NCBI RefSeq assembly: GCF_004193775.1
Contig: NC_041016.1
Span: 37,852,176 to 37,916,175 of the forward strand
DNA: 64,000 nt
Source of the DNA: Glycine soja
Taxonomy: Eukaryota > Streptophyta > Magnoliopsida > Fabales > Fabaceae
Direction of reading: 5' to 3'
Shown: in pieces, positions 32,727 to 64,000 of the stretch
Layout of the letters: each line of letters starts with the position of its first letter
How positions within the stretch are numbered: position 1 is the stretch's first letter
Notes under the pieces: generated by a model
What the model was told of the DNA's origin: nothing
What the model saw: the letters and a program-made list of their open reading frames with translations, nothing else
Database searches by the model: none
Program-made: the position numbers and the translations under genes

Positions 32727-33825
32727 TGTTGGACAAGAGACCTCAATAACTTAAGAGAGGGGTGAATTAAGTCTTACAAAATTTTCCACTAACAAGCTTT
32801 TAACCCCCTTTTAAATGATAGGCTCAGAATGCAGAAAAAGAAGCAACAATCAATTTAATAATGTTCTTTAAACGTGCAAGACAAAATTGATTGCAATAAA
32901 ATAAATAAGATAAGGGAAGAGAGAATTGCAAACTCAATTTATCCGTGCCTACGTCCAGTCCTCAAGCAATCCACTTGAGATTTTTCACTATCTCTGTAAA
33001 TCCTTTACAGACTTTGAACACACCATGGGATTCATCACCCTTGTGTTCAAGATTCTCCAAGAGACAACCAATTTCTTGATTACAATTCTCACAATCCAAG
33101 AGACATCCAGTCTCTTGATTACAATTCTCACAATCCAAGAGACAATCAGTCTCTTGATTACAATTGAGTTTATGAGATGAATAGAAAGATTTTTCTCCTT
33201 TAGAGTAGATGATACAAATTGAAGTTCCTAGAAGGATTCTCAATAGATTTGCAAGTGTTTGACCAAGAGTTGTTGAGAGAGCATTTGACAATTAAGTTCT
33301 CTTAGAATATCTCTCTCATGCTTTTTGAAGTCAGACACACATATATGTAGGCCCATCGTGCCTTTTCAAAATGGTTTGAAGAGATGTGTCTTTTCAAAAA
33401 GCTTTTATGAAGTTTTCTCATTGGTAATTGATTACAGGTTTCTGGTAGTCGATTACATAGTTATATTTTGAAGGGTCATGACTTTTCAAAGCATTTTTCT
33501 GAAGTGTTGTTACTGGTAATCGATTACGAGATTCAAAATTAAAATTCAAAACCATTTTTGAAAGTTGTTTGCAAACTTGTCTTCTGGTAATCGATTACAG
33601 CTCCTGGTAATTGATTACTAGAGCCTTTGCTCTCTTGGAAACAATTTGTTTTAAGGCAAAAACCAATCAACCAATGAGAATGTTTGAGGCCTTATCTTTT
33701 TCTTGATCTTGTTTGCTTGACCTTGAATTAATCTTAAAGCAATGTTAACCTTTCAATGTTTGTTGAAGCAGCCTTGTATTAATTCTACTTTGGCATCATC
33801 AAAACCCTGTATTCGTACACTCACA
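32727..33825 (-). repeat. 3' LTR of element E
   Basis: 1099 bp. Three copies of a 39-bp unit (AGAGACAACC... CACAATCCA) lie at 33058-33170; the other LTR has two. Five TAATCGATTA-type palindromes lie at 33422-33620. Confidence 0.9.
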
Positions 33826-34050
33826 TTCTCCCCCTTTTTGATGATGACAATCATTATCAAGTGAATTCTTTTTATCATCATCAAAACCTGCATTATTCAA
33901 TTCTCCCCCTTTTTGATGATGACAACCATTATCAAGTATATTATTTTTTACATCATCAAAACTTGTATAATTCTTTTTTACATCATCAAAACCTGCATGA
34001 GTCACATTCTCCCCCTTTTTGATGATGACAACCATTTGTAGTTTAGGAGT
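33826..34050 (-). repeat. Triplicated polypurine-tract module of element E
   Basis: On the plus strand CTCCCCCTTTTTGATGATGA occurs at about 33828, 33903 and 34009, spaced by copies of CATCATCAAAAC. On the minus strand each is a polypurine tract; the one at 33829 abuts the LTR. Confidence 0.85.
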
Positions 34051-34196
34051 AAAAAGAATATCTATTTGTGTTGTTCACTCCTCCTTGATTTTGCAATGAT
34101 TACTTATATGAAACGGCTGAAGTTTTCATAGATTTCATACATATATAAAAAAAACGGTCTTAATAAGATAATTCCCGTTACTATCTCATCTTTTAT

Positions 34197-36354
34197 CTAT
34201 CTCTCCCCCTTTTTTAACATAAAAAACAAATCATAAGCAGAGAAAAGAAAAGCATTCGGCAATTTATAATGAATTAAAAGAGTAGAGCATGCCATACCAT
34301 TCAAAGTATCATTTCTTGGCCTAAAAGAAAATGTTATCGCTTGTTGGAATATATCAGAATCAAATGATACCAAAAGGCCTTTATCACATAATTGATAAAT
34401 ACTTAATATACTATGCTTAAGACCATCAATAAGTAAAACATTTTCTATGGAGGTAGAGAGATTCGTACCTATTTTTTCAACTCTAACAATTTTACCTTTG
34501 TTGTTGTCTCCATAAGTCATATATTCACTATCTTTGGGAGAAATATAAATAAACTTTGATGCATCTCCTGCCATGTGTTTGGAGCAATCGCTATCAATGT
34601 ACCAACTTTGCTTCAAGGAGTCCATCATTCATATAATCATATTTTGATTTTGGTACCCAAATTTTCTTGGGTTCTTGAATATTAGTCTTGACTAAGGATC
34701 CTTTTGGAACCCATACCATTCTTCCAATGATACTACCATTCTTTCTAATATAACATGTTGATGCACTATGATCTTTCATACCATAGTAAAAGCATGTTAA
34801 CAAGGGAGAACTAGCCTTTTGAGTGGAGGCAAAGAAATTTTTATGCATCTTTTGTTGATATTTAGGATTATATCCAAATCCAGCCATATCAAAAACACAT
34901 CTTTGTTTTGCTAATATAATATTAAATTATTTTTACCAAGAGTAAATTTGCCAAGGGAAATTTTTAAATCTACAATTTCTTCTTTGAATTTATCACAACA
35001 TTCACATGAATGAGATGCTTTATTGTTTTCTTGTATTGAGCATTTTGTAGAAGATTGGTTTTTATCTACTGATTTTAAAATATTAACTTCAGATTTAAGA
35101 TTTTCTAACTCTACATTTAATTTCAAAATTTCCTTTTCTAAACTTGAAATAGTTTTCTTAGAATATGAAACTAATTAGGCAAGTTTGACAGATTCTTTAT
35201 CCAAGCCATTAAATGCATCTTGAAGTTCATCAAAAGAAATAGATAAATCATAGTTAGAAGACATTACCTCTTCTCCGCTTTCATAGTCTTTGGTCATGAG
35301 GCCTAGATTTATGATTTCATTTTCTGAATCACTTGATGAATCCATGTCATTATCTTCCCAAGTGATGTATTCTTTCTTTTCTTTGAAATTTCTCTTGTCA
35401 GATTTTTCCATTCTTCTTTTAAAGACAAGACAATCAAATCTCAAGTGCCCAGGTTGATCGCATTCATAACATTTTGGGGCTAAGGAGGAATCTTCTCCTT
35501 TCTTCTTTGGATTGATGTTTGATCTCCTTTGATTTCCTTTGTTTCTAAGAAATTTATTGAATCTCTTCACAAAAAATCTGAAATCATCATCTTCTTCTAT
35601 TTCATTCAAGTCCTCTTTGTCACTTTCTTCTTGAATAAAAGATGATGAGGCTCTGAGTGCAATTCCTTTATTCTTTTTGTTATTCTCTTCATGTTGATGG
35701 AGTCTAATAAGTTCCATCTCATGTTCCTGAAGCTTTCCAAAAAGAGTTGCAAGAGACATGTAAGTAAGATCTCTTGATTCTGCAATTGTTGTTACTTTTG
35801 GTTGCCATTTCCTGCTTAAACATCTCAGCACTTTGTTAATGAGATCTTCATTAGGAAATATTTTTCCCAATGATGCAAGATGATTAATTATATGCGTAAA
35901 TCTCTTTTGCATGTCTTGTATGGTCTCATTTTCATTCATTCTAAATAGTTCATATTCATGTGTGAGAGTGTTTATTCTTGATCACTTGGCATCAGTTGTG
36001 CCTTCATGGGTTACTTGTAATGTATCCCACATTTCTTTTGCATTTTTACAATTTGAGACTCTGAAATATTCATCCATGCCTAATGCAGAAGTGATTATAT
36101 TTTTGCCTTTAAATTGTATTGAACCCTTCTTCTTTCATCATCATCCAATTCTTCTCTAGGTTTTTTTATAGTTGCATTTCCCACTACCATTGTAGGAATG
36201 AAGGGACCAATTCTAATGGCTTCCCATATATTTAAATATATGTCTTCTACAAAGATCTGCATTCGGGTTTTCCATAATGATAACCCTCACCATTGAAAAC
36301 AAGAGGCCTATTAATAGAATTTCCCTCAGAAAATGGAAAGTCAGATGAGGCCAT
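34197..36354 (-). pseudogene. Sirevirus gag and protease remnant (element E)
   Basis: The minus-strand ATG at 36354 begins a copia Gag (SSDFPFSEGNSINRP) that soon hits stops. A clean 254-codon piece follows (35939-35175) with the core end (NENETIQDMQKRF, LRCLSRKWQPKV) and a zinc knuckle CYECDQPGHLRFDC. A coiled-coil-like piece (35126-34911), a second zinc-finger-like region without its full set of ligands (34887-34594) and a protease piece (34628-34197) complete it. The protease has WYIDSDCSKHM, so the usual DSG reads DSD. Translation stops at the 3' region; no pol follows. Confidence 0.88.
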
Positions 36355-36392
36355 AATTATTCTTGAAGTTTTTCAATTTTAAACAAGAATAC

Positions 36393-36406
36393 TGCTCTAA
36401 CACCAC
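36393..36406 (-). promoter_or_regulatory. Degenerate primer-binding site of element E
   Basis: On the minus strand TGGTGTTAGAGC follows the LTR end after two bases. It matches the initiator-Met site TGGTATCAGAGC at 10 of 12 positions. Confidence 0.75.
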
Positions 36407-36407
36407 T

Positions 36408-37484
36408 TGTAGGATAAGTGGCCTTAATAACTTAAGAGGGGGGGTGAATTAAGTCTTACAAAATTTCTTACTAACAAGCTTTTAACCCCCTTTTAGATGA
36501 TAAGTTCAGAATGCAGAAGAAGAAGTAATAATCAATTTAATAATGTTCTTTAAACGTGCAAAACAAAATTGATTGCAATAAACTAAATAAGATAAGGGAA
36601 GAGAGAATTACAAATTCAATTTATACTGGTTCGACCACTTCCCGTGCCTACGTCCAGTCCTCGAGTAACCCACTTGAGATTTTCCACTATCTCTATAAAT
36701 CCTTTATAGACTTTGAACACACCTTGGGATCCATCTCCCTTGTGTTCAAGATTCTCCAAGAGACAACCAGTCTCTTGATTACAATTATCACAATCTAAGA
36801 GACAATCAGTCTCTTGATTACAATTAAGTCTATGAGATGAATAGAAAGATTTTTCTCCTTTAGAGTAGATGATACAAATTGAAGTTCCTAGAAGGATTCT
36901 CAATAGATTTACAAGTGTTTGGCCAAGATTTGTTGAGAGAGCATTTGACAATTAAGTTCTCTTAGAATATCTCTCTCATGCTTTTTGAAGTCAAACACAC
37001 ATATATATAGGCCGATCGTGCCTTTTCAAAATGGTTTGAAGAGATGTGTCTTTTCAAAAAGCTTTTCTGAAATCTTTTCACTGGTAATTGATTACACAGT
37101 TATATTTTGAAGGGTCATGAATTTTCAAAGCGTTTTTCCGAAGTGTCGTTACTTGTAATCAATTACAAGCATCTAATAATTGATTACAAGATTCAAAATT
37201 AAAATTCAAAACCCTTTTTGAAAGCTGTTTGCAAACTTGTCTTCTGGTAATCAATTACAGCTCCTTGTAATCGATTACCAGAGCCTTTGCTCTCTTGGAA
37301 ACAATTTTTTTTAAGGCAAAAACCAATCAACCAATGAGATTGTTTGAGGTATTATCTTTTTCTTAATCTTGTTTGCTTGACCTTGAATTAATCTTGAAGC
37401 AATGCTTAACCTTTGAATGTTTGTTGAAGCAACCTTGTATGAATTCTACTTTGGCATCATCAAAACCACATTCATACACTCACA
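36408..37484 (-). repeat. 5' LTR of element E
   Basis: 1077 bp; on the minus strand it starts TGTGAGTGTATG and ends TTATCCTACA. It keeps a 17-bp stretch (GGTTCGACCACTTCC region, about 36630) lost in the other LTR. Five TAAT..ATTA palindromes lie at 37082-37280. Confidence 0.9.
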
Positions 37485-40387: not shown

Positions 40388-40625
40388 CTGAATGACAAAG
40401 GGCGCAGAATTTGTCTCTGCGCGTTTATCACCCAACTTGCGAAATCTGAATGATAAAGGGCGCATAATCTATTTCTACACGTTTAGCCACTCAGCTTGTT
40501 GTTCCTGAATGATAAAGGGCGCAGAATATGTATTTGCACGTTTATCCACTCAGATTGTTGTTCCTGAATGATAAAGGGCACAGAATATGTATCTGCGCAT
40601 TTACCCACTCAGCTTGCTATCATGC
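40388..40625. repeat. 59-bp tandem repeat (4 copies)
   Basis: Units starting TGAATGA(C/T)AAAGGGC lie at about 40390, 40449, 40508 and 40567, each ending in a CCACTCAG-type segment. Confidence 0.85.
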
Positions 40626-40638
40626 TTTGAGTCTTAGA

Positions 40639-41330
40639 GATAGCAAAAGAAAGTTTATACGGATAACCACTCGGGTATCTCCGCCCGTCAGCGTGACACA
40701 AATGTCAGTATGACAGATCTTGTGAGCGCGGAAGATGACGTAAATCTCCGCGTGTCAACGGTCTTGTTGGGCCGCGATTGACGAATGGTGCAGAAGAAGA
40801 CGTTAGTCTCTGCATGCTATCAGGCTTTCTGTCTTATAGATAGCAAAAAAATGTTTATACGGATAACCACTTGGGTATTTTCGCCCGTCAGCGTGACTCA
40901 AATGTCAGTATGACAGATCTTGTGAGCACGGAAGATGACGTAAATCTCCACGTGTCAACGGGCTTGTTGGGCCGCGATTGACGAAGGGTGCAGAAGACGA
41001 CGTTAGTCTCTGCATGCTATCAGGCTTTCTGTCTTACAGATAGCAAAAGAATGTTTATACGGATAACCACTCGGGTATTTCTGCCCGTCAGCGTGACTCA
41101 AATGTCAGTATGACAGATCTTGTGAGCGCGGAAGATGACGTAAATCTCCGCGTGTCAACGGGCTTGTTGGGCCGCGACTGACGAAGGGTGCAGAAGACGA
41201 CGTTAGTCTCTGCATGCTATCAGGCTTTCTGTCTTACAGATAGCAAAAGAAAGTTTTGAAAGTGCGGACAACCACTTGGGTATCTCTGCATGTCACGTGA
41301 CTCCAGTGTCAGTATGACAGATCTTGTGGG
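40639..41330. repeat. 200-bp tandem repeat (about 3.5 copies)
   Basis: GATAGCAAAA begins at 40639, 40839, 41039 and 41239, an exact 200-bp period. The first three units are nearly identical; the fourth is diverged and cut short. Confidence 0.95.
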
Positions 41331-44171: not shown

Positions 44172-44928
44172 TAAGGTGTGAATATGGAGCCCACTGAAAG
44201 TGAGGAAGCGTAGCCCTCTAAAGGCAAGGGCGTGCAGCCCTCCGAAGTTCAGGACGTGTCGCCTTTTGAAGGCGAGGCAGTGCAGTCCTATGATGGTGAG
44301 GACGTGCAATCCTCTAAAAGTGAGGGCATGTCGCCCTTTGAAAATGGGGGACATGTAGTCCTCTGATGGCGAGAACGTGTCATCCTCTAAAGGCGAGGAC
44401 GTGTAGTCCTCTGAAGGTGAGGACGTGTAGCCCTACAAAGGCGAAGGTACATGACCCTTTGACGGCGAGGACGTGTAGTCCTCTGAAGGTGAAGGTACAT
44501 GACCCTTTGAAGGCGAGGACGTGTAGTCCTCTGAAGGTGAAGGTACATGACCCTTTGAAGGTGAGGACGTGTAATCCTCTAAAGGTGAGGGCGTGCGGCC
44601 CTCTGAAAATGGGGGACATGTAGTCCTCTGATGGAGAGAACGTGTCATCCTCTAAAGGCGAGGATGTGTAGTCCTCTGAAGGTGAGGGCGTGTAGCCCTA
44701 CAAAGGCGAAGGTACATGACCTTTTGACGGCGAGAACGTGTAGTCCTCTGAAGGCGAGGGTGTGCAACCCTCTTAAGGTGAGGACGTGTATCCGAAGGTG
44801 AGGACGTGTAGTCCTCTGAAGGTGAGGACGTGCAGTCCTCTGAAGGTGAGGGCATGTAGCCCTATGAAGGCGAGGACGTGAAGTCCTCTGAAGGTGAGGG
44901 GATGTAACCCTCTGAAGGCGAGGGTGTG
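44172..44928. repeat. 24-bp minisatellite array, left part
   Basis: About 31 units of GAAGGTGAGGACGTGTAGTCCTCT and variants. In 44430-44560 two variants alternate (with GTACATGACCC), giving a 48-bp higher-order period. The array is split by element F and resumes at 55985. The last five bases GTGTG are the target duplication of F. Confidence 0.93.
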
Positions 44929-46275
44929 TGATGTGCCATCATTTTCTCCTATTTCTTAACCCTTTTTGCCCCATTTTAAATACTGATTAGTCTTAATTGT
45001 CAAATTTATTAGGCAGTTTTATTATTTGGGCCCATTCAGCTAATTTGATGTTTTTAATCTAATTTCAGGAATTAATGAAGCATTGGGTTTGAATCCAGAA
45101 TTGGGCTTGGGCTTGAATCCAGAATTGAGCTTGGACTTGAAGAGGACATACTATTTTATTCTACAAAATTAGATCTTATCTTATCTTTATCTTATCTAGA
45201 TATTATTTAGATTTGATCTCATCTAGATATTATTTAATCTAGATCTTATCTTATCTAGATTTGAATTTCTCATCTAGATATTATTTAATCTAGATCTTAT
45301 CTTATCTAGATTTGAATTTCTCATGTAGATATTATTTAATCTAGATCTTATCTTATCTTATCTAGATTTGAATTTCTCATCTAGATATTATTTAATCTAG
45401 ATCTTATCTTATCTTATCTAGATTTGAATTTAATTTATTTATGGGTCTGGATTTAAAACAGATTTGTAAGCTTTGGGACTGAAAAACTATATAACAGCAC
45501 CAAGGTTCTAGTTTAGGCTCTCTCTTCGATTATTCGTTTTTAGTTTTAGTCTCTCTCTCTCTCTCTCTCTCTTCTTCTCTCTCCTATTTTCGTTTTTAGT
45601 TTTAGGCTTTTCTTAGACACTTTTTTGTTTTGCAATTCCAGTTTTGACTTTTCATTTTAGCAATAAAATTTCGTTCTTCAATCTATAATTTCGTTCTCTA
45701 TTGATTAATGGAAGGCTAGATTTTCTGGTGTTGTTCCTTTTGAGGACGAAGCCCAACTCTCTTTGAGGTTTCGCTTGCAATGTGGTTTCCTGGCAGTTTT
45801 CCCTTCACCAGTTATCCCAATTTCGTGAATATTAATTAGTGCACGCTTCGTGTTCGATTAATTGCCTCTGAGCCTAACTTGCGTTCATGCTTAATGGACG
45901 AAGGGCTAACTGGTGTATGTGGTGCCTAATCACGTATTGAAAACCCTAAGTTGATTTTCGCTTAGTAAATTGAAATAGGGTTGGATTAAGTGGTTGACTG
46001 TTAGGGACGAATTCTCCATAACCCAGGATAAGAGAGTGGCTTCTGAATCAGAGGAAACAACCCGTTTTTAGTATTAGTAGTTTCGTATTCCATTTTATTT
46101 GTTATGCTCTTTAATTACCAAACAACCAAACCCCCCCCCCCCCATCGTTACTGTTACTGTTACTGCAAATATATTATGAACATTTGGCTTGTCACTGCTC
46201 GTTGGGAAACGACCTAGGATCACTTCCTAGTTACTGCATTTTCATGTTTATTTGATTCGGGTACGGCCTCGATCA
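44929..46275 (+). repeat. 5' LTR of element F
   Basis: 1347 bp, TGATGTGCCATC...GGCCTCGATCA. It has four tandem copies of a ~55-65-bp unit (CTAGATATTATTTAATCTAG, TTATCTTATC) at 45195-45430, a CT microsatellite at 45551-45572 and a C run at 46131-46143. Confidence 0.95.
45488..45494 (+). promoter_or_regulatory. TATA box of element F 5' LTR
   Basis: TATATAA lies 560 bp into the LTR, before a CT-rich stretch; it is the same at 55201-55207. Confidence 0.75.
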
Positions 46276-54647: not shown

Positions 54648-55984
54648 TGATGTGCCATCATTTTCTCCTATTTCTTAACCCTTTTTGCCCCATTTTAAAT
54701 ACTGATTAGTCTTAATTGTCAAATTTATTAGGCAGTTTTATTATTTGGGCCCATTCAGCTAATTTGATGTTTTTAATCTAATTTCAGGAATTAATGAAGC
54801 ATTGGGTTTGAATCCAGAATTGGGCTTGGGCTTGAATCCAGAATTGAGCTTGGACTTGAAGAGGGCAGACTATTTTATTCTACAAAATTAGATCTTATCA
54901 TATCTAGATATTATTTAGATTTGATCTCATCTAGATATTATTTAATCTAGATCTTATCTTATCTAGATTTGAATTTCTCATCTAGATATTATTTAATCTA
55001 GATCTTATCTTATCTAGATTTGAATTTCTCATCTAGATATTATTTAATCTAGATCTTATCTTATCTTATCTTATCTAGATTTGAATTTCTCATCTAGATA
55101 TTATTTAATCTAGATCTTATCTTATCTTATCTAGATTTGAATTTAATTTATTTATGGGCCTGGATTTAAAACAGATTTGTAAGCTTTGGGACTGAAAAAC
55201 TATATAACAGCACCAAGGTTCTAGTTTAGGCTCTGTCTTCGATTATTCGTTTTTAGTTTTAGTCTCTCTCTCTCTCTCTCTCTTCTTCTCTCTCCTATTT
55301 TCGTTTTTAGTTTTAGGCTTTTCTTAGACACTTTTTTGTTTTGCAATTCCAGTTTTGACTTTTCATTTTAGCAATAAAATTTCGTTCTTCAATCTATAAT
55401 TTCGTTCTCTATTGATTAATGGAAGGCTAGATTTTCTGGTGTTGTTCCTTTTGAGGACGAAGCCCAACTCTCTTTGAGGTTTCGCTTGCAATGTGGTTTC
55501 CTGGCAGTTTTCCCTTCACCAGTTATCCCAATTTCGTGAATATTAATCAGTGCATGCTTCGTGTTCGATTAATTGCCTCTGAGCCTAACTTGCGTTCATG
55601 CTTAATGGACGAAGGGCTAACTGGTGTATGTGGTGCCTAATCACGTATTGAAAACCCTAAGTTGATTTTCGCTTAGTAAATTGAAATAGGGTTGGATTAA
55701 GTGGTTGACTGTTAGGGACGAATTCTCCATAACCCAGGATAAGAGAGTGGCTTCTGAATTAGAGGAAACAACCCGTTTTTAGTATTAGTAGTTTCGTATT
55801 CCATTTTATTTGTTATGCTCTTTAATTACCAAACTACCAAACCCCCCCCCCCATCGTTACTGTTACTGTTACTGCAAGTATATTATGAACATTTGGCTTG
55901 TCACTGCTCGTTGGGAAACGACCTAGGATCACTTCCTAGTTACTGCATTTTCATGTTTATTTGATTCGGGTACGGCCTCGATCA
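54648..55984 (+). repeat. 3' LTR of element F
   Basis: 1337 bp, nearly identical to 44929-46275. Differences are mainly lengths of the TTATCTTATC repeats, the CT microsatellite and the C run, plus a few single bases. Confidence 0.95.
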
Positions 55985-56275
55985 GTGTGCAACCCTCTGA
56001 AGGTTAGGGCGTGCAGCCCTCTGATGGCGAGGACGTGTAGCCCTCTCAAGGCGAGGACGTGTAGTCCTCTGAAGGTGAGGACGTGTAGTCCTCTGAAGGT
56101 GAGGACGTGTAGTCCTCTGAAGGTGAGGACATGCAGTCCTCTGAAGGTGAGGGCATGTAGCCCTATGAAGGCGAGGACATGAAGTCCTCTGAAGGTGAGG
56201 GCATGTAGCCCTATGAAGGTGAAGACGTGTAGTCCTCTGAAGGCGAGGACGTGTAGTCCTCTGGAGGCGAGGGTA
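55985..56275. repeat. 24-bp minisatellite array, right part
   Basis: About 12 more units of the array interrupted at 44928, starting with the GTGTG target duplication of element F. Confidence 0.93.
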
Positions 56276-57117: not shown

Positions 57118-58096
57118 ATGTAGAAGCAAGATGTTTTTATGCTTTGATGATGCCAAAGGATCAAGTGCTTCGAAGTTTTATTCAAGACAAGAATCCAATA
57201 ATCCAAGAAAATCAAGATATATGATCAAGTTGATCTCTAGAATCTTAGGAAGAAGTTTCCAAATTGAAAAAGCAAAAGGTTTGGCCAAAGAATTCTATCT
57301 AAATCATTTCAAATTGAGATTTACTCTCTGGTAATCGATTACCACCAGCTGAAAATGTTTATGACAGTTACTAGAAATTTGAATTCAAAATTTATAATGT
57401 GTAATTGATTACACATGGATGGTAATTGATTACCAGCAGTTTATTGAATGTTTTAATTCAAATTTTAAATCTAGTAATCGATTACACAAGTCTTGTAATC
57501 GATTACCAGAGGGGATTTTCAAAAAATAATTTAAATGTTTTATGAATGGCCATCAAAGGTGACTTGGAAACACGAATTTAAAGAGAGTTTTCATTGCCCA
57601 AAATGGTTTTATCCTCTCAAAAGATTAAGAGAGTTTTTTCTGAACTGAAATGTCTTATCTTCTCAAAAAGATTCCTTGGTCAACCACTTGCATATTCAAT
57701 AAGGAATTTTGATTGATCTTCATTGTACAATCTATCTCTTTCATGAGAGATTTCTTCTTCTCTTCTTCTTACTTCTGAAAAGGGATTAAGAGACCGAGAG
57801 TCTCTTGTTGTAGAGGATTCTTAAACACAAGGGAAGGGTTGTCCCTATGTGGTTCAACTTTGTAAAAGGAGTTTTACAAAGAGAGTGGAAAATCTCAAGT
57901 GGGTTGCTTGAGGACTGGACGTAGGTACGGGAAGTGGCCGAACCAGTATAAATCAAGTTTGCTTTCCTCTCTTCCCTTAAACTTCTTTTATTTATTGCTA
58001 TTTATCTTTTTCTTTAAAGAATTTTCAATTGTCGTCTAAGGGTGCATTGTTAATCCAAAAAGAGAGAGTGAAAGTTTAATTGGGGAATAGTCTTTG
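57118..58096 (+). repeat. Sirevirus-type LTR fragment, plus orientation
   Basis: It resembles the LTRs of element E in reverse: GCTTTGATGATGCCAAAG near its start, TAATCGATTA palindromes at 57329-57511, and GGACTGGACGTAGGTACGGG and CCGAACCAGTATAAAT near 57910-57950. It breaks off exactly where the chromovirus LTR begins, so it was the insertion target. The left edge is approximate. Confidence 0.7.
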
Positions 58097-60465
58097 TGTG
58101 ACACCCTGGAAATTTCTACCCAGAATTTTTGAAAACGATGTATTTTGAATGATTATATATATAAGTATTATTCAGTGTATATGCCTATATGTTCTTGGTA
58201 GAAGTAGGAATAGCGGGGGCAAGATATGCGGGTTAGGCTAATTAAGGAAGAGAAATCCATAATTGGGAGGTTATGGGTTAATTCTTAATTAATTAGTTTA
58301 AAAATCATCGTTTTGCGTGCAACTTAAAATTTAACGAAACCAACCTCTGAACCACGCTCGGGGTCTTATTCTGAGCGTTTTGATATATATATTGATTACT
58401 TTCGAAAACTGGCCCCGACGGACGCAGAGAAACGCGAGGAAATGGAACCAGAGGAATGGCACGCAAACCGAGGCAGGATTTTAGTGTTTCAAAGGTCAGA
58501 TTTTTCTCACTTTTTGTGGCTGAGTATGGGTCACAATCAAAAGAGAAAGTGGGCCCTTTTGCTCCACTCAAATGGAGACACGTGGCATAGCTTAAATAAA
58601 ATAATAGAAAAAGAGAAAACCCTTTTTAAAACCAAAAAGCACCTCTCTCTCTCTCCTCACTCAGCCCAAAAGAAATTCAGAAGCTCTCCCTCTCGCTCAC
58701 GTTTCTTTTCTCCTTCTTCTTCATCCACCATTGTTGCCCAACAAAGCTTCAACCTTTGGTGCCCATTTCTGCTCCAAATCGCGAAAGGAGGGCATTTTCG
58801 GAGTCGTGAAGCGCGTCTCTACGTGTGGGACTTCGAAATTTCAGGTTTGGGTGGACTTCTTTCTCCTTTGATTTTCGTGGGTATGGGGTTTTGGGAGATA
58901 TGATGGGTAGTCTTGCTAGGTTTCTGCTTTATGATGATTATTTGTGAAGAAATTTGTGGAAAGCATGTTGAACTTGCCATGTTTGGATGAGTTAAACATA
59001 CCCATTCAGTTTTAGGGTTTTTATGATGATTCTTGTGATGCTTATGTGCTGAAATTGCTTATGGAAAACTATTAGAGATGAAGGGTAGAATTAACCTAGG
59101 GTTATAAAGTGAGAATGTGGTGTTATGAGTGGAAAAAGAGTGAGGCTTTGAGAGTTGGAAGGTTAAATCTGGATTCTGTGGTAAATGGAGGTTAAAGTGA
59201 GTTCATTCTAGCTTGAAATGTCATTTAGGACTTATGAGAAAGCTTGGACTGTGCTAGGGAGAAAAACAAATGACCAAAGTGAACCAAGAGCCATTTCTAG
59301 GGAAAAATTGGGTGTTGAGGAGTCAAATTTTGATTTGGTGGAATTTTAGGTGTAAATCCAGTTTGAGCAAGTTTAGATTGATGTTATGGACTTGTGTGAG
59401 GTGAGAGTTTGCTTCAAATTTACCTCATTCTAAATTTCACTTCTCAAGCCTAGAAAATCCATTAAATTGAGGGGTTTTGGACACCTAGATTTTGTGTTGC
59501 TGTGGTTTGAAGCTTGGCTTTGGTTTAGACATGATTGATACATGATTTGGGACTTGTAGGATTTGATTTGGGCAAGATTGGATGAGGGGAAGTGTGGTTT
59601 TCGAAATCTGCACTTTGTGCAGATTTTTGCAGTGAAATTGTGCAGCGGAATTTTGCACAAGTGCAGAAAAATGCTTGTGTGTGATTGGCTGTGGAAAGAG
59701 TAGTGCAGAATGAGTTCTGGATGTTTTCTAGTAGATCCCAACGGTCAAAATGTAGGCTTATGTACTAGAGACTTCCAGTAAAATTTTCGAGTCGATCCAA
59801 CGGTTAATGAACCGGAACGAAGGAATTGTTACTGGGGTCTTTAAGTGAGAAAAGCTGTGATTTGGTTGGTGTTTTGGGCAGAGTTTTCTGCCTTTGCGCT
59901 GTTTTGCTTTGCTGTGATAGCATGTGCTGTTTGAATGTTGTATTAATTTGATGTTGGGGAAGCTTGGGAGGATTGATGGGGACCCGGTGTTGAGAGAAAT
60001 GAGGATATGGGCTACGTGGGAGTACGTGAGCTCAGTTGGAGGTGGGCAACAGGGGATGGTGGGTTTATGCGCGCATTGTGGATGTGGAAAACTTGTTGTG
60101 CACCATCGCCCGACCGCCACCTAGTACCACATGTGATAGGTACCCCATAATCCTACAAGCTTGAGATGAGGAAGTGTAGAAGGGTGAAACTTCCTGCTTT
60201 TACTCGTTGACCACAGAGTGGTACCTGGAGATATGTCGCGGGGGTCAGGAGACCTTGGGGACGTCAGGTGGGGTGCTATTGCCCAAAACCAAGCTTGACC
60301 AATCCCGACCCAACCCGGGCATAGTCAGTCAGTGAGAACCTGTGATGTACCTAAACAGGCGAGCTCCTGGCAGTCAACAGATAAAAAGAACAAAGACCAC
60401 AAAGCAAGGAGGCTTGTGGTGGCTGGCCAGCTGTGAACTTTGATTGATATGTGGGTTATGGCCTC

Positions 60466-60940
60466 TGGTAATCGATTACCAAGGGTGGGTAACCGATTAC
60501 AAGGCTTAAAAATGAAGACAGGAGACTAAGATGATCTCTGGTAATCGATTACCAAGGGGTGTAATCGATTACCAGGCTTGAAAACGAGGTCAGGAAGCTA
60601 TGAGGGCTTCTGGTAATCGATTACCAAGGGGGTGTAATCGATTACCAGGCTTAGAAATGAAGGCAGCAGGTTGTGGAGGCCTCTGGTAATCGATTACTAG
60701 TCTGTGTAATCGATTACACAGAGGAATGGTGTTGGACCTTGTGGCCTCAATAATCTTAAGAGGGATAGACTTAGAATATAGAAGAAGCAACAACAATCAA
60801 TTTAACAATACTGGTAATCGATTACCAGGTATGTGTAATCGATTACACAGTGCCTTTTTCAGGTTTTCATGTCCTGAAGCTGTGTGATTCAATTTTGGCC
60901 TCTGGTAATCGATTACCAAGGCTGTGTAATCAATTACCAG
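60466..60940. repeat. Array of paired TAATCGATTA palindromes in the chromovirus LTR
   Basis: Six pairs. Palindrome centres: 60473/60494, 60546/60566, 60618/60639, 60691/60711, 60819/60840, 60910/60931. The first member of each pair is TGGTAATCGATTACCA or nearly so, and the second usually (T)GTAATCGATTAC. The first four pairs repeat every 72-73 bp. Confidence 0.95.
60740..60810 (-). repeat. Sirevirus LTR fragment embedded in the chromovirus LTR
   Basis: GTGGCCTCAATAATCTTAAG at 60741, followed by AGAAGAAGCAACAACAATC at 60780, matches the end of the LTRs of element E (36418 and 32740 onwards: GTGGCCTTAATAACTTAAG, AGAAGCAACAATCAATTTAA) with an internal deletion. Confidence 0.75.
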
Positions 60941-61060
60941 GGAGGAAAAGCCTTGAGATACCTCTTTTACTTGCATGTAGTGGTTATGAGATGCATTGTG
61001 TTACGGCATAGTTAGATTCTTGTGAAAGAGTCTACCCCTTTCTTTTCTTCCTTGTAGATC

Positions 61061-61495
61061 GTGATGGCGGCACAGCTAATCCATGATCGAGTAGAGATGG
61101 AGTGCCTAGAGGGAGCCTGGGAGACCCTCGAAGGCAACACGAGGCGCCGATTTCGGGGCACGATTCGATTCACGGCTACTTCTTTGGTGCATCCAGATGA
61201 ACCTGCACGGACGCTTCAGCGCACTGTGGAGTGGATACTACCCACGCCTACACCATATCGTCTAGTGGAGCCCGTCCAAGTGATCGAGGTAACGTCATCC
61301 AAGGAAGACCCTGAGGAGGATCTTGAGGAGCTACCTCCTGAGCCTGCTGTGGATGCTCTTGACTTTCTAGAGGGTGATGAGGATCCACTTCTTGAGGTGG
61401 ATTCTCCCGAGGAAGTCATGTCGGCATCTGAGGCAGACTCTACGGAGGATAGTGGCCCGAGAGAGATGGCGACCAGTGGAGGCTCTTCATCATAG
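61061..61495 (+). CDS. 144-codon open frame inside the chromovirus LTR, unknown function
   Basis: I do not recognise the protein. The first 70 residues look like a small folded domain (MECLEGAWETLEGN, RRRFRGTIRFTATSL, RTVEWILPTPTPYR). The rest is very acidic (Glu/Asp/Pro) and ends Ser-rich. A second Met directly follows the first. Just upstream, 61035-61056 is a pyrimidine run ending in TTGTAG, which looks like a 3' splice site, so it could be the last exon of a spliced transcript starting in the same LTR. GC content is higher than in its surroundings. It could also be a captured host gene piece. Whether it is translated is unknown. Confidence 0.5.
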   Translation: MMAAQLIHDRVEMECLEGAWETLEGNTRRRFRGTIRFTATSLVHPDEPARTLQRTVEWILPTPTPYRLVEPVQVIEVTSSKEDPEEDLEELPPEPAVDALDFLEGDEDPLLEVDSPEEVMSASEADSTEDSGPREMATSGGSSS

Positions 61496-62080
61496 TGGAC
61501 AGTTCCATGGATTAGTTTTATATACTTTTTGAGGGTGGGTGTATCTAGGACTAACTGTTAGGTTTACTTTTTTGTTTTTGTATGGGTAGACCTGATGTAT
61601 AGGAATTTGATGATTGTATACATGTGGCTGAAGCCACCACTATGGACACCTTTGCTCTGGATGACACTAGGTATTTTGTAAAACTCCCATATTTTGGACA
61701 GCTTTAAATGATGAATGTATTTATGATCAATCTTGTTATTTGAGAAGAAAGCATTTGCAACTTTATTTGTAAAAGAGTTTATCGACCGTATTTTATTCTT
61801 TTATTTTCACGTGACGACCTAAAGTAATGGCTGGTACATTCTTCCTTTTGAAACAACAAATTAGTTTTAGAGATTATGAACGGTAAGAAAGAATTGACTC
61901 CGAATAGAGTTGTGAACTGGCCATTCAGGACTCTATAGTGAGGATTTTCCTTCTAAACCTAGTTATGGTGAAAAGAGAAAGAAATGAAAAAGAAAAAGAA
62001 GAAAAAAAAAATTACCATGGTTTTTGTTATTTAGATTATTACCATCAAACCAGTCATTATTTTGGGGACGCCACAATTGG

Positions 62081-62092
62081 TGGTATCAGAGC
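62081..62092 (+). promoter_or_regulatory. Primer-binding site of chromovirus (initiator-Met)
   Basis: TGGTATCAGAGC, five bases after the LTR end, is an exact match to the usual site. Confidence 0.93.
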
Positions 62093-62366
62093 AAAAGTTG
62101 GATTCTAGTGAACCTGTTATGGTCTTGCTGTGTGAATGTTGTGTATCTCTGAAACTTGGGAGTAGGTTTCGGGGAGTGACGTTAAGTCACACATTGTGTG
62201 TATTTCTGCCTTCTTGTCTTGAGCATGGATGTGTGACTGATTCATAGGGTTGTTGTGTGTATAAGTATGTATAAAGAGAAGGATGTTGTTATAACTGTCG
62301 TAGCCTGTGTGGTACACTCTCTCATTAGGATTTCTTGGGTACTAATAGCTTCCCTACAAGTTAAGT

Positions 62367-64000
62367 ATGGCAGGACGTGGTAGGGATCAGAACCGTGATG
62401 TCCTCGACCGCATCACAGCTGTGCTGGAAACTCTGGTACAGGAACGTGATGTGGAGCCGGCGGAGTATCGGGGACTCATGGCTTTCCGTAAGAACCACCC
62501 GCCAAAGTTCAGTGGAGACTATGATCCGGAAGGTGCTAGGTTGTGGTTAGCTGAGACGGAGAAGATTTTCGAGGCGATGGGTTGCCTTGAGGAGCATAAG
62601 GTCCTCTATGCGACATTTATGCTCCAAGGAGAGGCCAAGAATTGGTGGAAGTTCGTGAAGCCTTCATTTGTTGCACCTGGAGGCGTGATTCCTTGGAATT
62701 CCTTCAAGGACAAATTCCTGGAGAATTACTTTCCACGAGATCTCAAGAAGAAGAAGGCGAGGGAATTTCTGGATTTGAAGCAAGGAAACATGTCTGTTGG
62801 AGAGTACACGGCCAAGTTTAATGAGCTTCTGCAGTATTGGCCTCAATACCAATATGCTCGGAATGAGGAAGATTTGTGTGCTCAGTTCGAGAATGGGCTT
62901 CGGTTGGAGATCCAACAGGCGGTTAGTTATATGCAGATCACGGATTTTAATCAGTTGGTGACAAAGTGCAGGATTTTTGAGGACAAGATGAAGGAGAGGC
63001 AAGCTAGAGGCGTTGGAGGACCTCAGAGAAACCATCCTTTCAGAGGAAATGGTAACAAGAGGATGAAGCCGTATGCTAGCAACAAGGGGAAGCAACCTAT
63101 GGCTACCTCCAATATGAGCCAGTCAAGGGGGACTGGGGTACAGTGCTTTCAGTGTGGGGGACCGCATCTTAAGAGGAATTGCCCACAGCTCCAGCAGACA
63201 CAGGAGAACCGTTGTTATGTTTGTGGCAAGGTGGGCCATTATGCTCGAGAATGTAGGGTGACTGGGAGGCCGACAGTGACGGCCAATTCTAACACCGTCA
63301 ATCGTGGACCCACTAATTCCACAAGGAGCGGTAATGTTAGCAACAACAACACTAGTGGTGGAAGACCAAAAGTACCCTCTCGGGTATTTGCTATGAGTGG
63401 TTCAGAAGCAGCTGCCTCCGACGATTTGATACGGGGTAAGTGTTTGATTGCTGATAAACTACTAGATGTACTTTATGATTCAGGTGCCACGCATTCTTTC
63501 ATATCTCATGCATGTGTGGAGAGGTTGGGGTTATGTGCGACAGAGTTACCATATGATATGGTGGTGTCTACTCCGACGAGCGAGCCTGTAACCACCTCTC
63601 GGGTGTGTTTGAAGTGTCCTATATTTGTTGAGGGTCGATCTTTTATGGCGGATTTGATTTGCCTACCCTTAGCTCATCTAGATGTGATCTTGGGGATGGA
63701 TTGGTTATCTACTAACCATATCTTTCTAGACTGTAAGGAGAAGATGCTAGTGTTTGGTGGAGATGTAGTTCCAAGTGAATCTTTAAAAGGGGATGCGGCC
63801 AGCGAAGGAACGGGGGATGTTCGAACTTACATGGTGTTGTTCTCTATGTATGTGGAAGAGGACGCTGAAGTTAGTAGTATACCGGTGGTGTCAGAATTTC
63901 CGGAAGTTTTTCCTGACGACATTTGTGAATTACCACCTGAGAGAGAAGTGGAATTCATTATTGACTTGGTGCCTGGGGCGAATCCAGTGTCGATCGCGCC
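62367..64000 (+). CDS. Chromovirus gag-pol polyprotein (3' partial)
   Basis: ATG at 62367 opens a frame of 544 codons without a stop up to the window end. Gag core: HPPKFSGDYDPEGARLW, ATFMLQGEAKNWWKF, FLENYFPRDLKKKKAREFLDL and VGEYTAKFNEL (residues about 45-190). Two zinc knuckles follow: a shortened CxxCxxxHxxxxC from Cys 260 and a standard CYVCGKVGHYAREC from Cys 283. The aspartic protease has DSGATHSF with Asp 371 and the later DVILGMDWL. The frame reaches the N-terminus of reverse transcriptase (EFPEVFPDDI, LVPGANPVS) at the edge. All features are intact, so the copy may be young. Downstream RT, RNase H, integrase and chromodomain are expected outside the window. Confidence 0.92.
   Translation, partial: MAGRGRDQNRDVLDRITAVLETLVQERDVEPAEYRGLMAFRKNHPPKFSGDYDPEGARLWLAETEKIFEAMGCLEEHKVLYATFMLQGEAKNWWKFVKPSFVAPGGVIPWNSFKDKFLENYFPRDLKKKKAREFLDLKQGNMSVGEYTAKFNELLQYWPQYQYARNEEDLCAQFENGLRLEIQQAVSYMQITDFNQLVTKCRIFEDKMKERQARGVGGPQRNHPFRGNGNKRMKPYASNKGKQPMATSNMSQSRGTGVQCFQCGGPHLKRNCPQLQQTQENRCYVCGKVGHYARECRVTGRPTVTANSNTVNRGPTNSTRSGNVSNNNTSGGRPKVPSRVFAMSGSEAAASDDLIRGKCLIADKLLDVLYDSGATHSFISHACVERLGLCATELPYDMVVSTPTSEPVTTSRVCLKCPIFVEGRSFMADLICLPLAHLDVILGMDWLSTNHIFLDCKEKMLVFGGDVVPSESLKGDAASEGTGDVRTYMVLFSMYVEEDAEVSSIPVVSEFPEVFPDDICELPPEREVEFIIDLVPGANPVSIA

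Follow-up and report, generated by a model that had tools for sequence, protein, structure and literature searches.

Is a short palindrome that recurs in pairs at a constant distance, in the LTRs of both copia and gypsy elements, a functional module of these elements or a by-product of the way they multiply? This question is raised by a 64-kb stretch of DNA (C15:37852176-37916175, hereafter the window). The palindromic core TAATCGATTA occurs 27 times in the window when up to one mismatch is allowed (16 exact and 11 one-mismatch copies), whereas 100 dinucleotide shuffles of the window gave a mean of 1.79 cores and a maximum of 6. The cores form 12 pairs, and when we recomputed the centre distances every one was 20 or 21 bp, as the first-pass annotation of this DNA had reported. 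That annotation had also held that the palindromes come in pairs and not singly at random; the 12 pairs do lie in the clusters that it named, but three of the 27 cores are single (33517, 37085, and 57332). The best 10-mers located 20-21 bp from these single cores had 6, 6, and 4 mismatches, respectively, and since four or fewer mismatches occur at 17% of random positions, such partners are at chance level. Both cores are exact in only five of the 12 window pairs. Loss of the central CpG, which gives TAATTGATTA or TAATCAATTA, accounts for nine of the 11 imperfect cores. The array period of 72-73 bp that had been described was recovered as a 73-bp tandem period at 60460-60717 but is confined to that region, the copia LTR arrays having a repeat period of 91-92 bp.

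We then counted the motif in the window's own assembly (1,013,641,977 bases, 1.01 Gb), using the reversed pattern as the control for every pattern and treating all counts of repeats as lower bounds. The exact core is present at least 113,823 times (control 1,821). Exact-core pairs at 20-21 bp number at least 41,822 (control 0) among at least 46,511 pairs at 10-40 bp (control 5), so that a scan for core pairs, which had been suggested as a check, shows a 20-21 bp peak that makes up approximately 90% of close pairs. The interval of 22-50 bp holds at least 7,615 pairs (control 4). Provided that pairs do not overlap, as many as 73% of exact cores genome-wide belong to a pair at 20-21 bp. Triples at 20-21 bp are rare (263; control 0), and the array is thus not a simple 20-bp tandem. 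The pairing of the palindromes is confirmed as real, strong, and genome-wide. Most copies are probably related by descent from fewer ancestors, and the raw counts consequently overstate the number of independent events. Twenty random 10-kb pieces of the genome contained two exact cores, which form a pair at 20 bp, together with 12 one-mismatch cores (reversed control 15 at up to one mismatch), and this scarcity indicates that the sites are strongly clumped. Separately, we noted a rare family (e.g. C1:20045221-20045293) in which four TAATCGATTA cores stand in a row at 21-bp steps with differing spacers.

To describe spacing beyond the pair, we used loci L025-L044. As these had been selected through lists of core pairs and of cores, the 20-21 bp class is enriched in them by choice, a bias from which the genome counts are free. 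Adjacent distances in the sampled loci were 20 bp (31 cases), 21 bp (54), 29 or 31 bp (12), 50-53 bp (17), 70-73 bp (29), and 80 bp (7), with 14 further distances below 120 bp; at 25 bp or less, the three that were not 20 or 21 were 16, 19, and 23. The first-pass annotation had extended helical phasing from the pair to the whole array. With repeated values included, the 76 inter-pair distances of 25 bp or more seem phased at 10.05 bp (R 0.69); once each value is counted a single time, the 22 that are left have no significant phase (R 0.28, reached by the null in 27% of draws). Furthermore, while exact-core pairs at 70-73 bp are common genome-wide (at least 26,771; control 1), those at 60-63 bp, or six turns, are rare (484; control 11). 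Phasing of the whole array was rejected on these grounds, and the two-turn pair is the sole helical phasing that we regard as secure.

The anatomy of the site was drawn from 192 sites in 26 loci or window slices. The consensus is a symmetric 16-bp palindrome, TKGTAATCGATTACMA, with G at -1 in 173 sites and C at +1 in 166, G or T at -2 in 181 and A or C at +2 in 164, and T at -3 in 121 and A at +3 in 103. The core was exact at 149 of the 192 sites and carried one mismatch at 43, of which 32 were transitions in the central CpG. Spacers of 10-11 bp separate the two sites of a pair, and the 85 sampled pairs hold 78 distinct spacers although their cores are near-identical outside the CpG, which bears out the earlier remark that the spacing is constant while the surrounding sequence varies. 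The two halves of a site did not covary significantly (p 0.29 and 0.051), and clustered pairs gave the same outcome. Genome-wide, the 16-mer with a central C to T or G to A change (TGGTAATTGATTACCA, both strands) occurs 4,182 times and the same 16-mer with A to G at one other position 160 times; the central change is thus 26 times commoner than at this single control position. An excess of this kind is as expected if the CpG is methylated. The 16-mer was also found in 16 stretches of a viral collection. In the DNA examined, none of them shows a pair of exact cores at 20-21 bp; in one (L056) the second core lies 6.2 kb from the first.

HD-ZIP III proteins bind GTAATSATTAC, and an analogy with this site had been drawn in the first-pass annotation. 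The GTAAT/ATTAC half sites are indeed alike, but the centre here is a two-base CG whereas that of the HD-ZIP III site is one base. The one-base form TGGTAATNATTACCA is not amplified in the genome (11; control 5), while the two-base form TGGTAATCGATTACCA is present at least 31,272 times (control 0), the amplified form being specifically T/A-flanked with a CG centre. The analogy fails on half-site spacing, and we excluded HD-ZIP III as the reader of the site.

Table 1. Features of the window that carry or surround the paired palindromes.
Feature	Position in window	Strand	Remark
Copia element	32727-37484	-	Two LTRs 85% identical, TG...CA ends, target-site duplication CTTTA (5 bp)
Copia 3' LTR, 1099 bp	32727..33825	-	85% identical to 36408-37484
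Array in copia 3' LTR, 5 cores (two pairs and one single)	33425..33617	-	
Pol_BBD fragment	34197-34628		Between copia LTRs
Copia-type gag fragment, Retrotran_gag_2 and zinc knuckle	35175..35981	-	Between copia LTRs
Copia 5' LTR, 1077 bp	36408..37484	-	Alignment to other LTR
Array in copia 5' LTR, 5 cores (two pairs and one single)	37085..37277	-	
Array in copia-LTR-related fragment, 5 cores (two pairs and one single)	57332..57505		
Pairs outside gypsy LTR	33425/33446, 33588/33608, 37156/37177, 37248/37268, 57402/57423, 57475/57496		
Probable 5' LTR of Ty3/gypsy element, ~3.98 kb	58097..62075	+	TGTGACACCC... to ...CGCCACA
Array in Ty3/gypsy LTR, 12 cores in six pairs (20-21 bp)	60466..60940	+	
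Pairs inside gypsy LTR	six between 60469 and 60927		
Copia-LTR insert in gypsy array, 80 bp	60730..60809	-	78/80 identical to terminal part of L028 LTR
Primer binding site TGGTATCAGAGC	62081..62092	+	Presumably of initiator-tRNA-Met type
Open frame, Ty3/gypsy gag, zinc knuckle and aspartic protease	62349..63998	+	Runs off window

Pairs lie in the LTRs of both superfamilies, as had been annotated, with copia gag and Pol_BBD fragments near one array and a gypsy gag/protease frame behind the other (Table 1). Pfam matches in that frame were RVP_2 (8.4e-44), Retrotrans_gag (3.3e-19), and zf-CCHC (2.2e-06), and the element was typed as Ty3/gypsy from this frame, integrase/pol lying beyond the window end. 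The first-pass annotation had labelled it a chromovirus, for which a chromodomain would be expected at the C-terminus of the integrase. Since the window does not reach the second gypsy LTR, we placed the limits of the first by inference from its sequence; loci L003 and L044 align with portions of this first LTR. Candidate TATA boxes were found downstream of the array at 61519 in the gypsy LTR and at 37009, 36708, and 36625 in one of the two copia LTRs; the search gave no candidate downstream of the array in the second copia LTR. The copia-LTR fragment with five cores apparently extends to 58097, the inferred start of the gypsy LTR; in a BLAST search with masking, L038 aligns to 58000-58097, the picture that insertion of the gypsy element into the fragment would leave.

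Downstream of the array and ahead of the primer binding site, the gypsy LTR contains a 145-codon open frame (61058-61492, + strand) that has no Pfam match up to E 0.01. It is identical at 141 of 145 positions in L003 (1869-2303, + strand), with 2, 2, and 12 nucleotide differences by codon position, and in this one pair of copies it looks like a frame under purifying selection as a protein. Elsewhere in the window, a 1.35-kb repeat is present twice (44929-46275 and 54648-55984, 98% identical), each copy bordered by one of two related 24-bp tandem arrays (44194-44929 and 55994-56272), and a 200-bp tandem repeat (40608-41328, 3.6 copies) contains none of the 27 cores. Among the array-bearing loci outside the window, the array of L042 lies between RVT_2 and a downstream PF20167 ORF that scored above the Pfam cut-off, and that of L040 is placed in the same way with a PF20167 score below the cut-off. 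In L043, 2.46 kb of which align to L042, the PF20167 ORF is present and the ORF upstream of it has no Pfam match; RVT_2 fragments lie beside the array of L035. In each of two Pfam scans most ORFs had no match, and the locus groups L025/L029/L032/L034/L035/L039, L027/L041, and L031 carry arrays without a class assignment.

The gypsy array itself holds a piece of copia sequence. The insert starts with TGTTGGAC, the complement of the end of the L028 LTR (...GTCCAACA), which is copia (Sirevirus-like), and it fills part of the 108-bp gap between the cores at 60707 and 60815. It carries no palindrome and is missing in the gypsy copy L003, in which the corresponding distance between the two pairs is 31 bp. 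Masked BLAST of the gypsy array against other arrays returned the same segment as the L028 and L036 matches (W_60 2729-2791); the top match, W_57 against W_60, is the 101-bp overlap of these two window slices. Template switching may possibly have left the insert, or else a nested insertion with a later deletion.

What might maintain such pairs? We lean towards reading them as cis-regulatory arrays, situated in the U3 region or linker of soybean-type LTR retrotransposons, in which a host DNA-binding protein would occupy paired dimer sites. A symmetric protein dimer would recognise each TKGTAATCGATTACMA palindrome as duplex DNA, and the centre distance of 20-21 bp would be set by two such dimers lying next to each other on one face of the helix. 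The unit would be the pair, which the elements would multiply at 51-53, 70-73, 80 or 29-31 bp. The reader would most likely be a host transcription factor, possibly of homeodomain type though not HD-ZIP III, that drives or restrains transcription of the element, and the presence of one motif in copia and gypsy elements would follow from a shared host factor or from exchange of arrays between elements. The motif with its pairing, copy number, and location, the symmetry of the site consensus, and the excess of central CpG changes are observed; protein binding, its cooperativity, an effect on transcription, and CpG methylation at the arrays are what we infer from the sequence. The cooperative binding platform put forward in the first-pass annotation is retained, as a proposal, as the best reading.

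Alternatively, the paired palindromes might form hairpins in the transcript from which small RNAs are cut, a view advanced for the palindromes of maize Sirevirus, which Bousios et al. reportedly described in 2016 as small-RNA hot spots; for the present arrays we hold this to be quite unlikely. In 11 of the 12 window pairs a single long stem closed by a small loop is predicted, and in the other (57402/57423) two short stems; folding energies of the pairs range from -11.6 to -22.9 kcal/mol, and the central CpG changes as though methylated. According to two reports, clusters of the CACCGGAC...GTCCGGTG palindrome in maize Sirevirus LTRs are small-RNA hot spots (PMC10760457, PMC5311732). However, any two copies of a palindrome fold together, and the long stems arise because the palindrome is repeated. 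Flank positions of partner sites gave a mixed but mostly negative result. At position 1, complementarity of the outer bases was raised (0.88 vs 0.76 permuted, z 6.5), with inner bases at 0.86 vs 0.84 (z 1.0), but it was lowered at position 2 (z -4.0 outer, -4.0 inner), at position 3 (z -0.9 outer, -4.9 inner), and at position 6 (z -2.4 outer, -3.9 inner). Half-site types were anti-correlated between partners (odds ratio 0.10 for inner halves, 73 of 85 pairs typed, and 0.07 for outer halves, 67 of 85). The trend was weaker when each of 39 clusters contributed a single pair (median p 0.03 for inner and 0.008 for outer halves) and was not significant at 23 or 18 clusters, pairs having been grouped by average linkage since single linkage chained 61 of the 85 into one cluster. 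Minimum free energies of 17 cluster representatives were similar to those of 316 chimeras (-13.1 vs -12.7 kcal/mol). The covariation of the flanks thus gives little support for a selected hairpin, and folding leaves the spacing of 20-21 bp unexplained. For the hairpin or siRNA source suggested in the first-pass annotation, the evidence from the flanks is mixed.

It may also be that core and spacing have no function, one ancestral pair having been duplicated in LTRs and spread by transposition and recombination. The tandem organization of the arrays is as this would predict, many loci fall into few alignable families, and spacer similarity ties the copia-type locus L037 to the gypsy locus L044. 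With the cores removed, a 51-bp spacer (z 4.6), a 71-bp spacer (z 4.8), and one 60-bp flank (z 5.3) of these two loci match collinearly, with reversed controls of 0.4, -1.2, and -0.3; these z values are optimistic, as L037 is the best partner out of 1,190 comparisons, and L037 is copia-type by alignment of its LTR to loci that align to the window copia LTRs rather than by its own coding region. The flank on the opposite side did not match (z 1.2). The gypsy arrays of the window (W_60) and L003 match L037 in the one flank (z 4.3 each); W_60 also matches in the 71-bp spacer (z 3.4; L003 1.5), and neither matches in the 51-bp spacer (1.1 and 1.0). Against plain descent, most spacers and flanks of gypsy versus other arrays are barely more similar than shuffles (median z 0.39 over the 1,190 comparisons; reversed control -0.11), and cores have stayed near-identical outside the CpG although spacers diverge. 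The distances, too, speak against it: 85 of the 88 sampled at 25 bp or less are 20 or 21 bp in loci partly chosen by spacing, as are 41,822 of 46,511 close pairs in the genome count, which is free of that choice. We consider descent without function unlikely. A host factor could, conversely, bind the pairs in order to silence the elements, by methylation or recruitment of heterochromatin, the site being kept since it is also needed for transcription or since the copies are young. The strong excess of CpG change in the core and the sharing of the motif by both superfamilies would fit such surveillance, yet a purely harmful site should be lost and 12 cores stand in one LTR array; taken with its explanation for the persistence of the site, we judge it very improbable.

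Returning to arrays of paired dimer sites, the similarity between L037 and the gypsy arrays implies that the pair geometry may have arisen once and then been copied. The elements had been called unrelated in the first-pass annotation, a term to be qualified given the residual spacer similarity between the copia-type array of L037 and the gypsy arrays. Together with the copia insert in the gypsy array, this similarity suggests, as a fit and not a proof, that pieces of arrays have been exchanged between superfamilies. By the LTR alignments, the matching strands of L037 and L044 run opposite relative to the transcription of their elements, an orientation that an enhancer-like module could tolerate. 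The broader proposition, that one paired-dimer code for one host factor complex was swapped as a module between copia and gypsy elements in one plant lineage and now occupies more than 10^5 sites, is tentative, and we give it somewhat less than an even chance. If true, the code would be one of the genome's most abundant transcription-factor sites and a common handle over otherwise unrelated elements. A defined 16-bp site with its spacing and huge copy number would in any case offer a handle on how plant LTR promoters are recognised, with the same factor predicted to act on both superfamilies and more than 100,000 dispersed sites that would act as a sink or network for it. Movement of the array between superfamilies would mean that LTR promoters are modular beyond what family trees of the polyprotein show.

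In 13 Sirevirus elements, palindromic repeated motifs (RM) are known both from the pre-ENV linker and from the part of the LTR that precedes the TATA box (Bousios et al., 2010, PMC2829016). In the part of that report considered here, the RM copies of an element number at least eight, begin in the upper half of the LTR at 200-400 bp from its first base, and are termed Sirevirus-specific since 'classic' (other Ty1/copia) elements lack them; all but those of Tnd-1 carry a CGG-CCG signature, the Tnd-1 RM being ACAATCGATTGT with the core AATCGATT (PMC2829016). The window copia and gypsy arrays likewise repeat a palindrome within the LTR. The copia arrays, at 208-400 of 1099 bp (3' LTR) and 207-399 of 1077 bp (5' LTR) from the LTR start, fit the range of RM starts, whereas the gypsy array sits outside it, approximately 2.37-2.84 kb into the 3.98-kb LTR. 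Set beside the RM minimum of eight per element, there are five cores per LTR in the truncated copia element and 12 in the gypsy LTR. The arrays of L040 and L042 would resemble the pre-ENV linker copies in their placement if the PF20167 ORF is the ENV gene, as its position suggests.

The Tnd-1 RM shares the AATCGATT core with the arrays described here. The full Tnd-1 form ACAATCGATTGT was set aside as it is not amplified in this genome (26; control 143). Our core, TAATCGATTA, differs from RM in lacking the CGG-CCG signature, and the section of PMC2829016 on RM contains no strict 20-21 bp pairing; its comparison is with other Ty1/copia elements and does not mention gypsy, whereas the arrays here are also in a Ty3/gypsy LTR. 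The maize Sirevirus palindromes, which the consulted portion of one report places in Helitrons too (PMC10760457), are similarly clustered in the LTR cis-region of copia elements but differ from ours in motif, in our AT-rich core, and in pair geometry. A literature search returned no report of the motif or pairing among the matches listed, which does not prove its absence from print. The soybean arrays look like a variant of the Sirevirus RM that is new in its pairing and in its sharing with gypsy; we call them a variant, and not the same RM, because, set against the published description consulted, they are without CGG-CCG, extend to a gypsy element, and are held to a strict spacing within pairs.
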